Origin: Mitsuaria sp. GD03876
Lineage (GTDB): Bacteria; Pseudomonadota; Gammaproteobacteria; Burkholderiales; Burkholderiaceae_C
Assembly: GCF_029840635.1 (NCBI RefSeq)
Contig: NZ_JAOCCU010000008.1
Span: forward strand, 1-64,000
Reading direction: 5' to 3'
DNA length: 64,000 nucleotides
The position numbers and the translations under genes were made by a program. Below are positions 24,882 through 44,451 of the stretch, piece by piece. The notes under the pieces were generated by a model, which did not search any database, was not told the DNA's origin, and saw nothing but the letters and a program-made list of their open reading frames with translations. Position 1 is the first letter of the stretch. Each line of letters begins with the position of its first letter.

Positions 24882-25224
24882 CTTTCGCTCACCTCTGCCC
24901 CGGCTTCCAGGGCTATCGGCTGGTTAACAAACCTTCCGCGACACGGCTTGACCGGTTGGCGGATTGCGACCCGCCTTTGCTGTTGCCAGAAAAGGGGACG
25001 GGAAGGACCAGAAGTCACAAGCGCAGGACTGTAGCACCACGACCGTTCCGGTGCTGTTGCGGGTTCGCCCAATTTTTGTGCACGGTGTCCATGACGCAGA
25101 TCAATCATTTGAGTCAGGGCGCATGACAAACGTTTGCGGTCATCCAACCCAAAGAAGTAGACTGGTGGATGGCGTACCGCCCCGAGATTGAATGGCGGAC
25201 TGCCTGGGACACAGGAGATCCCAC
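24882..25224. promoter_or_regulatory. Divergent control region between sucA and the oxygenase gene
   Basis: This 343-base gap is less GC-rich than its flanks and contains no convincing gene. A clear ribosome-binding site, AGGAG (25213-25217), precedes the oxygenase ATG. TTTGCG (25133-25138) and TAGACT (25158-25163), 19 bases apart, are weak plus-strand -35/-10 candidates. On the minus strand I found no convincing promoter for sucA by eye. Confidence 0.4.
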
Positions 25225-27715: not shown

Positions 27716-29323
27716 ATGTCTCGCATCCCGAGAGCTTCCCGCTTCGTCCGCGCCCGCGTGGCGCTGTCCCTGGCCGTCGCGCTCGGCGCGTCGGCCGCGC
27801 TGTCCACCGCCCAGGCCGTCCCGCTGCGCTGGGCCGCGCAGAACGACGTGCTGACGCTGGATCCGCATTCGCAGGACCACACCACCACCACCGCGATCCT
27901 GCAGCACGCCTACGAGGGCCTGACCCGCTACAGCGAGACCTGGGAGATCGAGCCCTGCCTGGCCACGAAGTGGACGACGGTCAGCCCGACGCAGGTCCGA
28001 TTCGAGCTGCGCAAGGGCGTCAAGTTCCACGACGGCTCGCCCTTCACCGCGGACGACGTGATCTTCAGCTTCAACCGCATCCGGCAGCCGCAAGGCACGA
28101 TGCAGATCTACGTCACCGGCATCAAGGAGATCCGCAAGATCGACGACTTCACCGTCGACCTGATCCTGGAGTCGCCGCAGCCCATCCTGCTGCGCAACCT
28201 GATCGACTTCCGGATCATGAGCAAGGCCTGGGCCGAGAAGAACAAGGCGACCCAGATGGCCGATTACAAGGCCAAGGACGAGAACTACGCCAGCCGCCAC
28301 GCCGCGGGCACCGGCCCCTACGAGATCACCTCCTGGCAGCCGGACCAGAAGGTCTCGATGGTCATCAACAAGGCCTGGTGGGACAAGAACAAGGGCAACA
28401 TCACCGAGGTCAGCTACATCCCGATCAAGTCGGACCCGACGCGCGTCGCGGCGCTGACCTCGGGCGACGTGGACCTGCTGACCGACGTGCCCACGCAGGA
28501 CGTCGGCGCGCTCAAGGCCGACGCCAAGCTCAAGACCATCGACGGCCCCGAGACCCGCACCATCTTCTTCGCGATGGACCTGGGCAGCGACGAGCTGCGC
28601 GGCGCCTCGGTCAAGGGCAAGAACCCGTTCAAGGACGTCCGCGTGCGCGAGGCGCTGTCGCTGGCCATCGACCGCGAGGCGATCAAGCGCAGCATCATGC
28701 GCGGCCTGTCGGTGCCCGCGGCGCTGATGGTCGCGCCCGGCGTGCACGGCTACGACGCCGCGCTGGACAAGCCGCTGGCGCCCGACCTCGCCAAGGCGAA
28801 GAAGCTGCTGGCCGACGCCGGCTATCCCAACGGCTTCGAGCTGCCGCTGAACTGCCCCAACAACCGCTACGTCAACGACGAGAAGATCTGCCTGGCCGTC
28901 GTGTCCATGTGGAGCAAGATCGGCGTCACCGCGCGGCTGACGGCGCAGCCGATGTCGCAGCACAGCCAGCTGTTCCAGCGCTTCGAGGCGCCGCTGTTCA
29001 TGCTCGGCTGGGGCGTGTCCACCCGCGACGCGCTGTACGCGATGCAGGCGCTGGCGCGCACCCGCAGCGGCGGCGCGGACGGCAGCTTCAACTTCTCCAA
29101 GGTCAGCGATCCGGAACTCGACAAGCTGATCGACGCCGCCAAGAGCGAGATCGACGTCGCCAAGCGCGACGCGCTGCTGCGCGACGGGCTGCTGCGCATC
29201 CGCGACCAGGTGCTGTTCATCCCGCTGCACCACCAGGTGCGGCCGTGGGCGATGCGCGCCACCCTGCAGACGCTGCACCGCGCCGACGACCGGCCGCAGG
29301 CGCGCTTCACGACGATCAAGTAG
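27716..29323 (+). CDS. Peptide/opine-type ABC transporter substrate-binding protein (SBP_bac_5), copy 1
   Basis: The 535-residue protein is a class C periplasmic binding protein of the DppA/OppA family. A long Arg-containing signal peptide is cleaved after AQA (about residue 34). The mature chain begins VPLRWAAQNDVLTLDPHSQ and has the family segments ATKWTTVSPTQVRFELRKG and KFHDGSPFTADDVIFSF. It probably binds a peptide or similar ligand for import, but no dppBCDF-type permease or ATPase genes lie nearby. The next gene is a close paralogue, with a 44-base identical stretch (27824-27867 against 29602-29645) and near-identical ends, showing tandem duplication. Confidence 0.9.
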   Translation: MSRIPRASRFVRARVALSLAVALGASAALSTAQAVPLRWAAQNDVLTLDPHSQDHTTTTAILQHAYEGLTRYSETWEIEPCLATKWTTVSPTQVRFELRKGVKFHDGSPFTADDVIFSFNRIRQPQGTMQIYVTGIKEIRKIDDFTVDLILESPQPILLRNLIDFRIMSKAWAEKNKATQMADYKAKDENYASRHAAGTGPYEITSWQPDQKVSMVINKAWWDKNKGNITEVSYIPIKSDPTRVAALTSGDVDLLTDVPTQDVGALKADAKLKTIDGPETRTIFFAMDLGSDELRGASVKGKNPFKDVRVREALSLAIDREAIKRSIMRGLSVPAALMVAPGVHGYDAALDKPLAPDLAKAKKLLADAGYPNGFELPLNCPNNRYVNDEKICLAVVSMWSKIGVTARLTAQPMSQHSQLFQRFEAPLFMLGWGVSTRDALYAMQALARTRSGGADGSFNFSKVSDPELDKLIDAAKSEIDVAKRDALLRDGLLRIRDQVLFIPLHHQVRPWAMRATLQTLHRADDRPQARFTTIK

Positions 29324-29472
29324 CGCGGCGCATTTCCTTCCTCGGCGAGCGGCATTTCCGGCCCGCCCTTGGGGCAATCCCCGAGGCCGGGCCGGTCCTG
29401 CATCGGGCCGCCCGCGGCTAGCATCCGGCGACTTCACGTGTTCTTAACGACGTTGCCAAGGAGCCACCGCTC

Positions 29473-31104
29473 ATGTCGAGGATCTCTTCCGGACCGACCC
29501 GGTCCGCGCGCACCACCCCCACTGCCCGCACCGTGCTGGGCGCTGCCGTCCTGGCGGCCCTCGCCTCGCTGGCCTGCACCCTGCCCGCCCAGGCCGCGCC
29601 TCTGCGCTGGGCCGCGCAGAACGACGTGCTGACGCTGGATCCGCAGTCGCAGAACCACAGCACCACCAACGCGATCGCGCAGCATGCCTACGAGGGCCTG
29701 ACCCGCTACGACCGCCAGTACCAGGTCGAGCCCGCGCTGGCCACGAAGTGGACCCAGACCAGCCCGACGAGCTGGCGCTTCGAACTGCGCAAGGGCGTCA
29801 AGTTCCACGACGGCTCGCCGTTCACCGCGGACGACGTGGTCTTCTCCTTCCACCGCATCAAGCAGCCGGTGGGCACGATGCACCCGTTCGTGGCCGGCGT
29901 GGCCGACATCAAGAAGGTCGACAGCCACACCATCGACGTGATCCTGGCCGCGCCCAATCCGATCGTGCTGCGCCAGTTCGTCGACTTCCGCATCATGAGC
30001 AAGACCTGGGCGGAGAAGAACAAGGCGATCAACCTGCCCGACTTCAAGGCCAAGGAAGAGACCTTCGCCACGCGCAACGCCAACGGCACCGGCCCGTACC
30101 GGATCACCGGCTGGCAGCCGGACCAGCGCATCACGATGGTCCAGAACAAGGACTGGTGGGACGCGAAGAACGCGACCAACGTCGACGAGGTGATCTACAC
30201 GCCGATCAAGTCCGACCCGACCCGCGTGGCCGCGCTGCTGTCGGGCGACGTGGACCTGCTGTCCGACATCCCGACGCAGGACGTCGGCCGGCTCAAGGCC
30301 GACGCCAAGCTCAGCGTCGCCGAGGGCAGCGAGACGCGCACGATCTTCATCGGCATGGACCAGGGCAGCGAGCAGCTCAAGGGCTCGAACGTCACCGGCA
30401 AGAACCCGTTCAAGGACAAGCGTGTGCGCGAGGCGATGTCGCTGGCCATCGACCGCGAGGCGATCAAGCGCGCGACGATGCGCGGGCTGTCGCTGCCCGC
30501 CGGGATCATGGTCGCGCCGGGCGTCAACGGCAACGCGCCCGACATCGACGTGCCCGCCAAGGTCGACGCCGAGCGGGCGAAGAAGCTGCTGGCCGAGGCC
30601 GGCTACCCGAACGGCTTCGAGGTGCCGATGAACTGCCCCAACAACCGCTACGTCAACGACGAGGAGATCTGCCTGGCGGTCGTGTCGATGTGGAGCAAGG
30701 TGGGCATCAAGGCGCGGCTGCAGACCGAGTCCTTCAGCACCTTCAGCCCCAAGCTGCAGGCCTTCGAGTACCCGCTGTTCCTGTACGGCTGGGGCGTGCC
30801 GACCTACGACGCGCTGTACACGATGCAGTCGCTGGCGCGCACCCGCGTGGGCGGCGCCGACGGCAGCGGCAACTACTTCCGGCTGAGCGACGCCAAGCTC
30901 GACCAGATCATCGATGCCGCCAAGGTCGAGGGCGACGTGGCCAAGCGCAACGCGCTGCTCAAGGAGGGCCTGGTCCGCATCCGCGACGAGGTGTTCTTCA
31001 TCCCGCTGCACCACCAGGTGCGGCCGTGGGCGATGAAGAAGACGGTCACCACGCCGCACCGCTCGGACGACCGACCCGAGGCGCGCTTCACGACGATCAA
31101 GTGA
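29473..31104 (+). CDS. Peptide/opine-type ABC transporter substrate-binding protein (SBP_bac_5), copy 2
   Basis: This second class C binding protein has 543 residues, a signal peptide cleaved near PAQA (about residue 38) and the mature start APLRWAAQNDVLTLDPQSQ. It aligns along its whole length with the upstream protein, including KNPFKD and VREAMSLAIDREAIKR and the ending DDRPEARFTTIK. Differences are spread through the ligand-binding lobes, so the two may have different ligands. AAGGAG lies nine bases before the ATG. The 149-base gap between the copies holds GC-rich sequence and no gene. Confidence 0.9.
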   Translation: MSRISSGPTRSARTTPTARTVLGAAVLAALASLACTLPAQAAPLRWAAQNDVLTLDPQSQNHSTTNAIAQHAYEGLTRYDRQYQVEPALATKWTQTSPTSWRFELRKGVKFHDGSPFTADDVVFSFHRIKQPVGTMHPFVAGVADIKKVDSHTIDVILAAPNPIVLRQFVDFRIMSKTWAEKNKAINLPDFKAKEETFATRNANGTGPYRITGWQPDQRITMVQNKDWWDAKNATNVDEVIYTPIKSDPTRVAALLSGDVDLLSDIPTQDVGRLKADAKLSVAEGSETRTIFIGMDQGSEQLKGSNVTGKNPFKDKRVREAMSLAIDREAIKRATMRGLSLPAGIMVAPGVNGNAPDIDVPAKVDAERAKKLLAEAGYPNGFEVPMNCPNNRYVNDEEICLAVVSMWSKVGIKARLQTESFSTFSPKLQAFEYPLFLYGWGVPTYDALYTMQSLARTRVGGADGSGNYFRLSDAKLDQIIDAAKVEGDVAKRNALLKEGLVRIRDEVFFIPLHHQVRPWAMKKTVTTPHRSDDRPEARFTTIK

Positions 31105-31111
31105 GGCTCGC

Positions 31112-31158
31112 GGCGGCCCTGGCCGGGTAGAGTACGGCACCCCGCAGCCAGGGCCGCC
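31112..31158. promoter_or_regulatory. 12-bp inverted repeat in the leader of the ATPase/HNH pair
   Basis: Perfect arms GGCGGCCCTGGC (31112-31123) and GCCAGGGCCGCC (31147-31158) are separated by 23 bases that contain a -10-like TAGAGT (31128-31133). The right arm ends three bases before the ATPase ATG and covers its only Shine-Dalgarno-like AGGG. It could be a terminator-like stem for the upstream gene, an operator, or a hairpin limiting ATPase translation. Confidence 0.6.
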
Positions 31159-31161
31159 CCC

Positions 31162-32631
31162 ATGTACGTCGACACGCTCACCATCGAGAACCTGAGGTCC
31201 CTCGCCGCCGCCGAGCTCGAGCTGAACCGGCCCGGCACGCCCGACCTCAAGTTCCCCAACGTGAACGTGCTGCTGGGCGGCAACGGCCGCGGCAAGACCA
31301 CCGTGCTGCGCGCCGCCGCGCTGGCGACGCTGGGACCGCTGCTCAGCGCGTCCTCCGGCTACGTGCCCGACACCCTCATCCGCCGCACGGCCAAGGCCGT
31401 TCCCAAGGGCAAGCCGGCGCCGGGCGCGCGGCTGCAGGCGACGCTGACGGCGACCGGCGCGGACTTCCCGGCGCCGAACGGCAAGAAGTCGACGCGCCAG
31501 GACGTGCGCCTGACCCTGACCACCACCGTCGAGCCGCTGGGCACCACCGAGCGGCTGGGCTGGGACGTCGAGCCGCGCGCGCTGGCCAGGGACGTGGAGC
31601 TCGCGCAGTTCGACGAGCGCGGCTCGTCGTTCTTCGTCGTCGGCTACGGCGCGAGCCGGCGCGTGGAGACCTCGGCGCGCGTCGACGAAAGCGCGCGCGC
31701 CAAGAATCGCCTCAAGCGCTACGAGCGCGTGGCCAGCCTCTTCGAGGACGAGGTCACGCTGATGCCGCTGTCCTACTGGCTGCCGCGTTACGCCGAGCGC
31801 AACAAGGGCCGCTACACGCAGGTGGTGAGGCTGATGAACGCGCTGCTGCCGGGGTCCTGCCGCATGGACCTGGAGGCCTCCACGTCGAGCGCGGGCGTGG
31901 CCGAGCACCTGTTCGTGATGAACGGCGTGAGCCTGCCCTTCCGCGCGCTGTCGGACGGCTTCCGCGCCTACGTCGGCTGGATCGGCGACATGCTGTACCA
32001 CGTGTGCATGGGCGCGGGCACCGGCCTGAAGCTGCAGGAGATCGAAGGCGTCGTGCTGGTGGACGAGATCGACCTGCACCTGCATCCGGAATGGCAGCGC
32101 GTGGTCGTGCCGACGCTGGCGGAAGCGCTGCCGAAGGTGCAGTTCATCATCACCACGCACAGCCCGCTGGTCGTGGGCTCGCTGCAGGGGCGCAACCTGT
32201 TCCTGCTCGACGACGAGGACGGCGCGACGGTGGTCAAGCGGCTGCCCGAGCGGGTGCACGGCAAGAGCGCCGAGCAGATCCTGCTGTCGCCCTACTTCGG
32301 CCTGGAGACCACGCGCGCGCCCGAGGTGGCGCAGGCGCTGAAGACGCTCGAACAACGCGCCACCGCGGGCGACAGCGCCGCGTCCGCCGGGTATCTGCAG
32401 CTGCTGTCGGGCAGCCTGCAGTCGGAGGACGTGAAGGCGATCCTCGCGCCGCGCTCGACCGCGCGCGCGGCCGCGGCGCGCCGTGCCTCGCTGGCGCCCA
32501 AGCCCGCCGCGAAGCCGGCCGCGAAGCCCGCGGCGAAACCGGCCGCCAAGCCGGCCGCCAAACCCGTCGCGAAGCCCGCCGCGCGAACGGCGGCGAAACC
32601 GGCCGCCGCCGCGAAGAAGGCGCGGCGATGA
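31162..32631 (+). CDS. AAA/SMC-like ATPase of a Septu-like ATPase-HNH pair
   Basis: The 489-residue protein is an ABC/SMC-type ATPase of the AAA_21/OLD-like group. It has an N-terminal beta strand MYVDTLTIENLRS, Walker A LLGGNGRGKTT (37-47), a signature-like FRALSDGF (260-267), Walker B GVVLVDEIDLHLHP (296-309) and H-loop TTHSP (331-335). These features match PtuA-type ATPases of Septu and retron-linked effectors, a family-level judgement. The C-terminus (447-484) is a KPAA/KPAAK repeat tail, very basic and histone H1-like, unusual for such ATPases. The TGA overlaps the next ATG (ATGA). There is no reverse transcriptase gene nearby. Composition does not differ visibly from neighbours. Confidence 0.82.
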   Translation: MYVDTLTIENLRSLAAAELELNRPGTPDLKFPNVNVLLGGNGRGKTTVLRAAALATLGPLLSASSGYVPDTLIRRTAKAVPKGKPAPGARLQATLTATGADFPAPNGKKSTRQDVRLTLTTTVEPLGTTERLGWDVEPRALARDVELAQFDERGSSFFVVGYGASRRVETSARVDESARAKNRLKRYERVASLFEDEVTLMPLSYWLPRYAERNKGRYTQVVRLMNALLPGSCRMDLEASTSSAGVAEHLFVMNGVSLPFRALSDGFRAYVGWIGDMLYHVCMGAGTGLKLQEIEGVVLVDEIDLHLHPEWQRVVVPTLAEALPKVQFIITTHSPLVVGSLQGRNLFLLDDEDGATVVKRLPERVHGKSAEQILLSPYFGLETTRAPEVAQALKTLEQRATAGDSAASAGYLQLLSGSLQSEDVKAILAPRSTARAAAARRASLAPKPAAKPAAKPAAKPAAKPAAKPVAKPAARTAAKPAAAAKKARR

Positions 32632-33503
32632 GGCGCTACCCCATCGGGCGCCAGAAACTGCTCGACGACATCGAGGTCGAACGTCCGCGCTGGCTCAAGC
32701 GCGCCGAGGCGCGCACCGCGCAGTACGTCGCCGACGGCGACTACACCGGCGGCAAGGAGTTCTGGAGCGAGATCAAGGCGGTCTACATCCGCCTGCAGCA
32801 CGAGAAGTGCGCGTACTGCGAGACGCGGCTGCAAGGCGCGGCCTTCGCGATCAAGGTCCATGAGGTGGAACACTTCCGCCCCAAGCAGAGCGTCAAGGCC
32901 TGGCCAAGCCCGAGCGCCGCGCACCTGCAAGGGTTCGTGCCGCCGGGCCCGGTCGGGAGCGCGTCGCCGGTCGGTTACTACAAGCTGGCCTACCACCCCT
33001 TCAACTACGCGATCGCCTGCACGCGCTGCAACTCGACGCTGAAGTCCAACTACTTCCCGGTGGGCGGACCGCGCCAGACCGACGGCCACGACCCGTCGCT
33101 GATGCATGGCGAGAAGCCGCTGCTGGTCTACCCGATCTCCGACATCGACGACGACCCGGAGGAGCTGATCACCTTCGAGGGCGTGCTGGCGGTACCGAAG
33201 CGGCGCTCGGGGCCGGACCGGGACCGCGCCCTCGTGACGATCGCGTTCTTCCAGCTGAACCACCAGGACCTGACGACGCGGCGCGCCGAGTCGCTGGCCG
33301 CGCTGTGGCTGAGCCTGGAGGCGATGGCGGCGCTGCCCGCGGGCCATCCGATGGCGGCGCAGTACCTCGCGGCGATCGACCGCGCCTGCGCGCCCGGCGG
33401 CGAGTTCAGCGCCTGCATGCGCGCCTTCCGCGACCTGCACGGCACCCGGCCGGACTTCGCCCGGCAACTGGGCGAGGCGGCCAACACCTTGACGCCCGCC
33501 TGA
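32628..33503 (+). CDS. HNH endonuclease-like partner (PtuB/TIGR02646-like)
   Basis: The 291-residue product starts with the ATG inside ATGA at the end of the ATPase gene. It has the split-zinc HNH layout: KCAYCE (Cys61, Cys64), HEVEHFRPK (His78, His82), then YHPFNYAIACTRCN (Asn126, Cys131, Cys134, Asn135) and KSNYFP (139-144). This pattern is typical of HNH proteins found beside SMC-like ATPases in Septu (PtuB) and retron effectors. The expected role is metal-dependent DNA or RNA cleavage gated by the ATPase. At 291 residues it is somewhat longer than I would expect for this type. The C-terminal half is helical without recognised motifs. Activity and phage defence are inferred. Confidence 0.82.
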   Translation: MRRYPIGRQKLLDDIEVERPRWLKRAEARTAQYVADGDYTGGKEFWSEIKAVYIRLQHEKCAYCETRLQGAAFAIKVHEVEHFRPKQSVKAWPSPSAAHLQGFVPPGPVGSASPVGYYKLAYHPFNYAIACTRCNSTLKSNYFPVGGPRQTDGHDPSLMHGEKPLLVYPISDIDDDPEELITFEGVLAVPKRRSGPDRDRALVTIAFFQLNHQDLTTRRAESLAALWLSLEAMAALPAGHPMAAQYLAAIDRACAPGGEFSACMRAFRDLHGTRPDFARQLGEAANTLTPA

Positions 33504-33593
33504 GCGACACGGCGCTCCGCTACAGTCCGCCCCGGCCCCGGCACGATCGGGCCGCGGCCGCGATCACAACACCGATCTCCAGGGAGTTCTTCA

Positions 33594-33962
33594 ATGCCTC
33601 ACACCGTCCTGTCGACGGGCCGCCGCCTGCGCGCGCTGCCCGCCGTCCTCGCGCTCGTCGCCACCACGCTGGGCGCCACCGCCGCCCATGCCGCCGACCC
33701 GGGCTGGGTCGCCAACCGCCAGGTCAAGAAGATCGTCGTCACCATGCAGGGCGGCTTCAACGTCCTCGTCTCGCCGGGGCTCACGGGCTGCACGTCCCAG
33801 AGCGGCTACGGCGACACCTGGGCGTCCATCTACCCGACCCACCCCGGCGTCAACCGCATGATGGCGCTGCTGATGACGGCGCAGACCTCCGGCAAGCGCG
33901 TCAACCTCTACTTCTACGACAACAACTGCAGCGTCTCCGAGGCCGTCCTGAACGAGGACTGA
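33594..33962 (+). CDS. Small secreted protein of unknown function with a cysteine pair
   Basis: A 122-residue product with a Sec signal peptide cleaved after AHA (about residue 33). The mature part of about 89 residues has two cysteines (Cys65, Cys112), likely disulfide-bonded in the periplasm or outside. Aromatic and beta-strand patterns include KKIVVTMQGGFNVLV and VNLYFYDNNCS. CAGGGAG precedes the ATG. I have seen similar short secreted proteins in other proteobacteria but cannot name a function. It follows the HNH gene by 90 bases; membership in that transcript is possible, not shown. Confidence 0.75.
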   Translation: MPHTVLSTGRRLRALPAVLALVATTLGATAAHAADPGWVANRQVKKIVVTMQGGFNVLVSPGLTGCTSQSGYGDTWASIYPTHPGVNRMMALLMTAQTSGKRVNLYFYDNNCSVSEAVLNED

Positions 33963-33987
33963 GCACCGGGCGCGCTTCGCGCTCATC

Positions 33988-34015
33988 GGCGGCGCCCGTC
34001 CCGGACGGCGCCGCC
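33988..34015. terminator. Strong GC hairpin between convergent genes
   Basis: GGCGGCGCC (33988-33996) pairs with GGCGCCGCC (34007-34015), and an inner GTCC/GGAC extends the stem. It lies between the secreted-protein gene (stop 33962) and the convergent histidine kinase (stop 34032). There is no T-run on either side, so it is a terminator-like hairpin only. Confidence 0.55.
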
Positions 34016-34031
34016 AGCTTCAAGGCCGGCT

Positions 34032-36668
<2,637 letters not shown>

Positions 36669-43808: not shown

Positions 43809-43896
43809 TGGTGCCTGGAACGGGACTCGAACCCGTACGCCTTTGAAGGGCGGCGGATTTTAAGTCCGCTGTGTCTACCAATTTCACCATCCAGGC
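43809..43896 (-). tRNA. tRNA-Leu (anticodon UAA)
   Basis: A complete 88-base tRNA including encoded CCA. The acceptor stem GCCTGGA/TCCAGGC, long variable arm, T-arm GGTTCGAGTCC and anticodon loop CTTAAAA with TAA are visible on the minus strand. It closes the cluster, corresponding to leuZ in the E. coli glyW-cysT-leuZ unit. Confidence 0.95.
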
Positions 43897-43962
43897 GGCG
43901 ACGACTCCGCAGTGAGTTCCATGTCGGAGTGAGCGCGCATTATCAGGGTCGTCGGGAAAGAA

Positions 43963-43991
43963 AAAAGGGAAGCCAGAACGGCTTCCCTTTT
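43963..43991 (-). terminator. Terminator-like hairpin between tRNA-Gly and tRNA-Leu
   Basis: AAAAGGGAAGCC (43963-43974) pairs with GGCTTCCCTTTT (43980-43991) around a five-base loop, and on the minus strand the stem runs into TTTTTT. It lies inside the tRNA cluster, just after the last tRNA-Gly, so tRNA-Leu may be partly uncoupled from the upstream tRNAs, or the hairpin may mark processing. Confidence 0.7.
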
Positions 43992-43998
43992 GAAGATT

Positions 43999-44074
43999 TG
44001 GAGCGGGAAACGAGGCTCGAACTCGCGACCTCAACCTTGGCAAGGTTGCGCTCTACCAACTGAGCTATTCCCGC
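43999..44074 (-). tRNA. tRNA-Gly (anticodon GCC), copy C
   Basis: A 76-base tRNA with encoded CCA, acceptor stem GCGGGAA/TTCCCGC, D-arm AGCTCAGTTGGTAGAGC and anticodon loop with GCC. Its sequence is identical to the two other Gly copies in this cluster. Confidence 0.96.
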
Positions 44075-44122
44075 ATCGCAGGACAGTCGGATGACGTGCA
44101 TCCAACCACCCTTTGGTGTCGT

Positions 44123-44198
44123 TGGAGCGGGAAACGAGGCTCGAACTCGCGACCTCAACCTTGGCAAGGTTGCGCTCTACCAACTGAGCTATTCCCGC
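44123..44198 (-). tRNA. tRNA-Gly (anticodon GCC), copy B
   Basis: Identical 76-base tRNA-Gly(GCC) with encoded CCA, 48 bases upstream (in transcription order) of copy C and 13 bases after tRNA-Cys. Confidence 0.96.
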
Positions 44199-44211
44199 AA
44201 TGTCCATTCTT

Positions 44212-44285
44212 TGGAGGCGCGATCCGGAGTCGAACCGGACTGACCGGATTTGCAATCCGGGGCATAACCGCTTTGCTATCGCGCC
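44212..44285 (-). tRNA. tRNA-Cys (anticodon GCA)
   Basis: A 74-base tRNA with encoded CCA. The acceptor stem GGCGCGA/TCGCGCC, anticodon loop TTGCAAA with GCA and T-loop GTTCGACTC are visible. It lies between Gly copies A and B, matching cysT of the Gly-Cys-Leu unit. Confidence 0.95.
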
Positions 44286-44344
44286 CCAGAACCCTGGACG
44301 GGATTCTGTAGAAGCCAGATTTGGTTGTCTGACTCCGATAAAAA

Positions 44345-44364
44345 ATGGAAGCCGGAGCTTCCAT
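44345..44364 (-). terminator. Terminator-like hairpin after the first tRNA-Gly
   Basis: ATGGAAGC (44345-44352) pairs with GCTTCCAT (44357-44364) around a four-base loop. On the minus strand it is followed by six T, 12 bases after tRNA-Gly copy A. It shares the GGAAGC core with the hairpin at 43963-43991. Confidence 0.65.
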
Positions 44365-44375
44365 CCTTTGAAACC

Positions 44376-44451
44376 TGGAGCGGGAAACGAGGCTCGAACT
44401 CGCGACCTCAACCTTGGCAAGGTTGCGCTCTACCAACTGAGCTATTCCCGC
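44376..44451 (-). tRNA. tRNA-Gly (anticodon GCC), copy A
   Basis: First gene of the cluster in transcription order: a 76-base tRNA-Gly(GCC) with encoded CCA, identical to copies B and C. The promoter at 44541-44570 lies about 90 bases upstream. Confidence 0.96.

Follow-up and report, generated by a model that had tools for sequence, protein, structure and literature searches.

A probable stand-alone Septu type I pair in Mitsuaria sp. GD03876 with a basic tail on PtuA

Two overlapping genes of Mitsuaria sp. GD03876 encode an SMC-like ATPase and an HNH nuclease. They lie in a 64,000-nucleotide stretch of contig NZ_JAOCCU010000008.1, read on the forward strand and called the window here. A sequence-only reading had taken the two genes for a Septu-like antiphage module without a retron, perhaps an undescribed variant, and the locus raises the question of which known system, if any, they belong to. 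The analysis favours a Septu type I antiphage system, present as a stand-alone PtuA-PtuB pair, at a probability of roughly 85%. The pair adds to Septu type I a new member that is ordinary but for one trait, the basic tail of PtuA, and PADLOC already has models for its clade. This assignment is backed by family membership, conserved catalytic residues, fold, a coupled operon, the lack of a retron and presence as a small insert of patchy distribution.

Profiles, residues and folds of the pair

The first gene, ptuA (31162..32631, plus strand), encodes an SMC/ABC-type (AAA_21) ATPase of 489 amino acids (aa) and was assigned by profiles and fold. The second, ptuB (32628..33503, plus strand), encodes an HNH endonuclease of 291 aa, assigned by profile, fold, the CxxC pairs C61/C64 and C131/C134, H82 and N126. 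PtuA matches the PADLOC profile PDLC00301 with 540.6 bits (6.9e-163), query residues 1-430 aligning to profile positions 1-418 of 429, and PtuB matches the PADLOC Septu profile with 259.5 bits (1.1e-77). Among PADLOC profiles the type I models PtuA1/PtuB1 come out best for the two proteins and the retron models score lower; PtuA reaches 67.4 bits against Pfam AAA_21 (cut-off 27). The motifs quoted in the sequence-only reading are present in the frames (Walker A GGNGRGKTT, Walker B LVDEIDLHLHP and THSP in PtuA; paired CxxC around HEVEHFRPK in PtuB), and their key residues are invariant: G39, N41, G44, K45, D301, E302, H306, H308, H333, S334 and P335 in a 31-row PtuA alignment, and C61, C64, H82, N126, C131 and C134 in a 30-row PtuB alignment.

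Structures were predicted as single chains. The AlphaFold2 (AF2) model of PtuA has a predicted local distance difference test score (pLDDT) of 84.1 and its top Foldseek matches are PtuA chains; for both proteins the predicted structure matches experimental ones, those of PtuA and PtuB from E. coli Septu and from type I-A retrons. The window pair shares folds, ATPase and HNH residues and the two-gene layout with E. coli Septu (PDB 8ee4, 8eea, 8sux; EcB88, PMC13096335, drawn on here, like the other Septu and retron papers PMC11555353 and PMC8565338, for the passages covered). It differs in the length of PtuB, 291 residues against 234 in 8eea, and in the distance between the catalytic His and Asn. 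In EcB88 these are H75 and N91, 16 apart and both required for defence (PMC13096335), whereas H82 and N126 of the window PtuB are 44 apart, by way of an insert common to most of the clade; the relative L029 lacks the insert and has a spacing of 16.

The coupling of the two genes had been noted from the sequence and was borne out: the ATGA at 32628..32631 (plus strand, read from the frames) is at once the start of ptuB and the stop of ptuA. A purine-rich AAGAAGG at 32614..32620 (plus strand), within the last ptuA codons, is a candidate ribosome-binding site of ptuB, and the overlap probably keeps translation of the two genes at a constant ratio. In the clade around the window (the window and loci L002-L033, a limit chosen post hoc, after the data had been seen), 22 of the 32 loci holding both genes, window included, have a 4-base frame overlap. 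Among the homologous loci, which are the best 80 of 177 from a scan of genome contigs, 74 hold a PtuB-like open reading frame (ORF), which in 73 cases directly follows PtuA on its strand, so the pairing goes beyond chance. Six loci are without such an ORF, including L020 and L041, which end at a contig edge. Members of the clade of PDLC00301 (PtuA) and PDLC00318 (PtuB) share with the window near end-to-end matches, a coupled pair and the lack of a reverse transcriptase (RT); the window differs in a longer, more repetitive tail and in a third gene within the insert.

Several observations weigh against the assignment. The NCBIfam scores stay below the membership cut-offs for PtuA (NF041760, 118.2 bits, cut-off 500), PtuB (NF041761, 44 bits, cut-off 150) and TIGR02646 (34.3 bits, cut-off 52.15), these being models made for retron effectors; the profile searches proposed in the sequence-only reading thus gave Septu matches in PADLOC and a match to AAA_21 above its cut-off, but none that would place the pair in these three families. 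PtuB has no match in Pfam, and when aligned by structure the two proteins show a low identity, about 20%, to their characterised E. coli counterparts. Known defence genes beside the clade loci are also few: four of 92 neighbouring ORFs match PADLOC at 1e-10 (AbiU, PDC-M68B, caspase and LmuB), in a scan of 92 of 104 neighbours, the 12 left out being mostly second neighbours in Pseudomonas.

A patchy insert without a retron

The segment 31105..34028 (no strand assigned), delimited by homology breaks, is missing from two congeners. Homology to congener G011 breaks off at 31104 and is restored at 34029; for G006 the two points are 31105 and 34059. In both genomes the flanking genes are adjacent and the pair is absent. 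Therefore ptuA, ptuB and the third gene constitute one segment of about 2.9 kb that is present here. It lies between a gene for a family 5 solute-binding protein upstream (Pfam SBP_bac_5, 309 bits) and, on the opposite strand downstream, a MASE4-HisKA-HATPase-receiver sensor kinase gene; in four other congeners examined, different genes follow the solute-binding protein gene. No known defence gene was identified beside the pair in a scan limited to the flanking genes of the window, in agreement with the earlier remark that the pair sits among transport genes and in no obvious defence island. That this placement marks an undescribed variant was not upheld, since lone placement among housekeeping genes is usual in relatives. 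In all five Pseudomonas carriers examined the pair sits between AbrB and ung, and these two genes lie side by side in 13 of the 15 non-carriers examined and not in the other two.

The distribution is sparse. The genus has 15 other genomes, all without PtuB, and one of 148 other relatives has it; 399 genomes of the order yielded the window's own copy and three weak matches only. In Pseudomonas, 23 of 298 genomes give a match of any score, and four give one with E <1e-100. In the tree the window PtuA falls into one group with four proteins from Pseudomonas (support 100/99), and the Pseudomonas PtuA relatives are 58-59% identical to it. The pair occurs across Pseudomonadota, Acidobacteriota, Myxococcota, Planctomycetota, Chloroflexota and others, a spread that fits the expectation for a transferred system. 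A tblastn search of 50,697 phage records with PtuB gave no match. Plasmid records matching PtuA number 108, of which five cover at least 80% of the query, the best at 44%; on a conjugative Rhizobium plasmid the PtuA relative (44%) adjoins DEAD/DEAH helicase, DUF2326 and SMEK genes. The flagged module is thus an ordinary one, a Septu pair spreading as an insert of just two genes amid housekeeping genes, a setting that searches based on defence islands would overlook.

Ordinary neighbours would also be expected of a housekeeping ATPase-HNH pair, for example one linked to DNA repair or transport. Solute-binding proteins and the MASE4 sensor kinase here, AbrB/Tct transport genes and ung in Pseudomonas, and a site shared by five of five carriers there all speak for such a role. 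Against it, the pair is rare and patchy within genera and its site is empty in the 13 Pseudomonas non-carriers and in the two congeners. The sequence-only reading would have been contradicted by best matches to a housekeeping ATPase/HNH family; instead the top profiles and folds are all Septu or retron effectors. A housekeeping role is therefore very unlikely.

PtuA and PtuB are also the effectors of type I-A retrons (Septu type II), in which a reverse transcriptase is associated with the pair (PMC8565338, passages covered), and the RT and msr-msd might here have been lost or lie elsewhere. The genome of the window does have one RVT_1 match, some RT occurs in 21 of 27 carrier genomes, and in one of these (G500, locus L021) the PtuAB contig itself carries an RVT_1 match, at a distance of about 30 kb. 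The single RVT_1 match of the window genome is, however, on another contig (C67, the window being on C78), and six of the 27 carrier genomes (L003, L004, L005, L006, L007 and L010) have none. A search with 28 RT queries, which all found each other, detected no RT-like ORF in clade loci L003-L033; one match fell in L064, outside the clade. Unlike the effectors of Ec78/Eco7 and Ec83/Eco4, the window pair has no RT or msr-msd and falls below the NCBIfam cut-offs, and the type I PtuA1/PtuB1 profiles outscore the retron models. With these points a degenerate or dispersed retron is highly improbable. An RT next to ptuA, by which retron type I-A is recognised, is lacking, whereas the features of Septu type I are present: both proteins match its profiles, ptuB comes directly after ptuA on a common strand, the Walker A/B and HNH residues are intact, and no RT is associated. 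The earlier description as a Septu-like pair without a retron beside it accordingly stands, with PADLOC profiles, folds and 73 of 80 loci alike. The suggestion of an undescribed variant does not, as PADLOC models match nearly end to end and neither placement nor leader hairpin nor third gene supports it.

The basic tail of PtuA and the proposed action

Of the unusual extras listed in the sequence-only reading, the basic tail is the one left standing, as a trait of part of the clade. It comprises residues 418-489 (32413..32628, plus strand), is rich in Lys, Ala and Pro, carries a net charge of +16 by count and is predicted to be disordered from about residue 447, pLDDT being below 50 across most of residues 447-487 of the AF2 model. 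Much of it is encoded by a tandem repeat at 32500..32606 (plus strand) of AAKP-type units, with 8.9 copies of 12 bp (74% matches) or 4.5 copies of 24 bp (77%). Compared with aligned relatives the tail is longer and more repetitive, although its 72 residues past the core equal those of L017. A net charge of +4 or more past the core, a threshold likewise chosen post hoc, was found in 14 of 33 clade PtuA and in none of 49 outside the clade, where the maximum is +3. The tails are alike in composition only, their sequences being dissimilar among clade members. On a 38-row tree, in which bootstrap values are unsettled and some long branches meet, the tail label is clustered, with four changes against 11.5 in shuffles and none of 500 shuffles as low. 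L002, the closest relative in the window's own family, nevertheless lacks this label.

Two trivial origins were considered and set aside. Chance composition is disfavoured by the clustering on the tree and by the last 30 residues, where a net charge of +6 or more occurs in 10 of the 33 PtuA of the clade, compared with 17 of the 174 ORFs in their neighbourhood (Fisher p 0.003), a loose control in which rows are not independent and the ORFs were called mechanically, many perhaps being spurious. The same charge occurs in one of 32 PtuB and in none of 49 PtuA outside the clade. Charged C-termini are not rare in other ORFs, as the 17 of 174 attest, and this counts against a special status of the tail. 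As a by-product of the ptuB ribosome-binding site, the lysine codons of AAGAAGG may account for the last few residues but hardly for 72.

A tentative and rather doubtful extension is that tailed proteins form a Septu sub-group in which a polycationic disordered PtuA tail, kept by charge and composition though not in its sequence, would tether PtuAB to nucleic acid, be it the nucleoid, phage DNA or tRNA, and so build sensing or substrate supply into the ATPase. The C-terminal-domain lysine repeats of actinobacterial TopA, which reportedly give the enzyme high processivity (PMC7398561), may serve as a precedent for such a grip on nucleic acid. The tail would then rank as an accessory module, comparable with the inserted effector-associated domain 7 (EAD7) of a Thermoflexus PtuA (L026) and with the TPR extension in L055. 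If the tail does matter, it would offer an easy way into the question of how Septu locates its substrate or its trigger. The passages covered of the E. coli Septu description (PMC13096335) do not mention a basic tail. No paper on a Septu with such a tail, or on Septu together with an effector-associated domain, was found in the literature searched, in which subscription papers are largely missing.

By analogy with published relatives, the window pair would act against phages, and its oligomeric state, ATP gating, trigger, substrate and abortive outcome are modelled on the same relatives. PtuA would form an oligomer that restrains the PtuB nuclease while ATP is plentiful; E. coli PtuAB reportedly forms a 6:2 assembly and is inhibited by ATP. 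Infection would free PtuB from PtuA, the freed nuclease would cut nucleic acid needed for growth, and the infected cell would stop phage production. In the passages covered, EcB88 cuts tRNA-Tyr in its variable loop upon infection and the infected cell is impaired (PMC13096335), retron-Eco7 PtuAB depletes tRNA-Tyr, and retron-Eco4 PtuAB lowered no tRNA. Cutting of tRNA-Tyr is not known to be a defining trait of the family. From these results a growth-stopping nuclease gated by PtuA is to be expected. The substrate may differ, given the Eco4 result and the low identity to the E. coli proteins, and tRNA-Tyr is perhaps one candidate only.

Other elements of the locus and its relatives

The third gene of the insert (33594..33962, plus strand, assigned from its frame) encodes 122 aa with an N-terminus that looks like a signal peptide by eye, and is not counted in the Septu system. 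It has no PADLOC, NCBIfam or Pfam match. The earlier reading was right that a possible secreted gene exists here, but it does not travel with Septu in the 80 other loci. A three-gene system that includes it is barely credible: it shares the insert with ptuAB, but a secreted protein is an unlikely partner for a cytoplasmic nuclease, and no homolog occurs in 80 other homologous loci or among 149 relatives apart from its own copy (148 others), with one weak match (7.4e-4) in the 399 genomes of the order. Its only clear relative (54.8% over 84 aa) is on the Janthinobacterium lividum plasmid p356839 (L104:6001-6252), unannotated in the PLSDB table, with no PtuAB among the eight features annotated within 6 kb of it in that gene table, which is incomplete.

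The leader hairpin noted earlier exists as an inverted repeat at 31112..31158 (plus strand), between the upstream gene and ptuA, but as a variant mark it is weak. It folds (-35.8 kcal/mol, z -1.87) only slightly better than shuffled sequence, with 8 of 200 shuffles as good, and a like hairpin was not evident in nine relatives (z -2.5 to +2.0). An msr-msd or regulatory RNA was rejected on this weak, unshared fold and on the lack of an Rfam match there at gathering thresholds; the repeat is probably without special meaning. A scan of 30950-34150 found no sigma-70-like promoter and one terminator-like site, a count no higher than in shuffles.

Some relatives depart from the usual arrangement. In the Thermoflexus metagenome-assembled genome (MAG) locus L026 (8001-11000), EAD7 is inserted in PtuA at residues 115-176 (Pfam 69.5 bits) and was matched by no other ORF of the fetched loci; PtuB follows PtuA, an ORF for a patatin-like phospholipase overlaps with the last part of ptuB, and an AIPR gene lies upstream. 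In the Ruminococcus MAG locus L055 (8001-11266), the 868-aa PtuA bears a TPR array at its C-terminus; the PtuB-like ORF is convergent on the opposite strand rather than downstream. A Myxococcales contig (JAAFHV010000009.1) carries two PtuA-PtuB copies, L013 and L017, with long basic tails on both.

Elsewhere in the window, tandem family 5 solute-binding protein genes at 27716-31104 are about 67% identical to each other and kept in congeners. At gathering thresholds Rfam matched only a sucA motif and tRNAs in the window. The sucA RNA motif (RF01070, 89.4 bits) lies at 24886-24969, directly before a minus-strand oxoglutarate dehydrogenase frame, and a minus-strand tRNA cluster at 43809-44451 reads Leu, Gly, Gly, Cys, Gly, with anticodon gcc and an identical score for all three tRNA-Gly.
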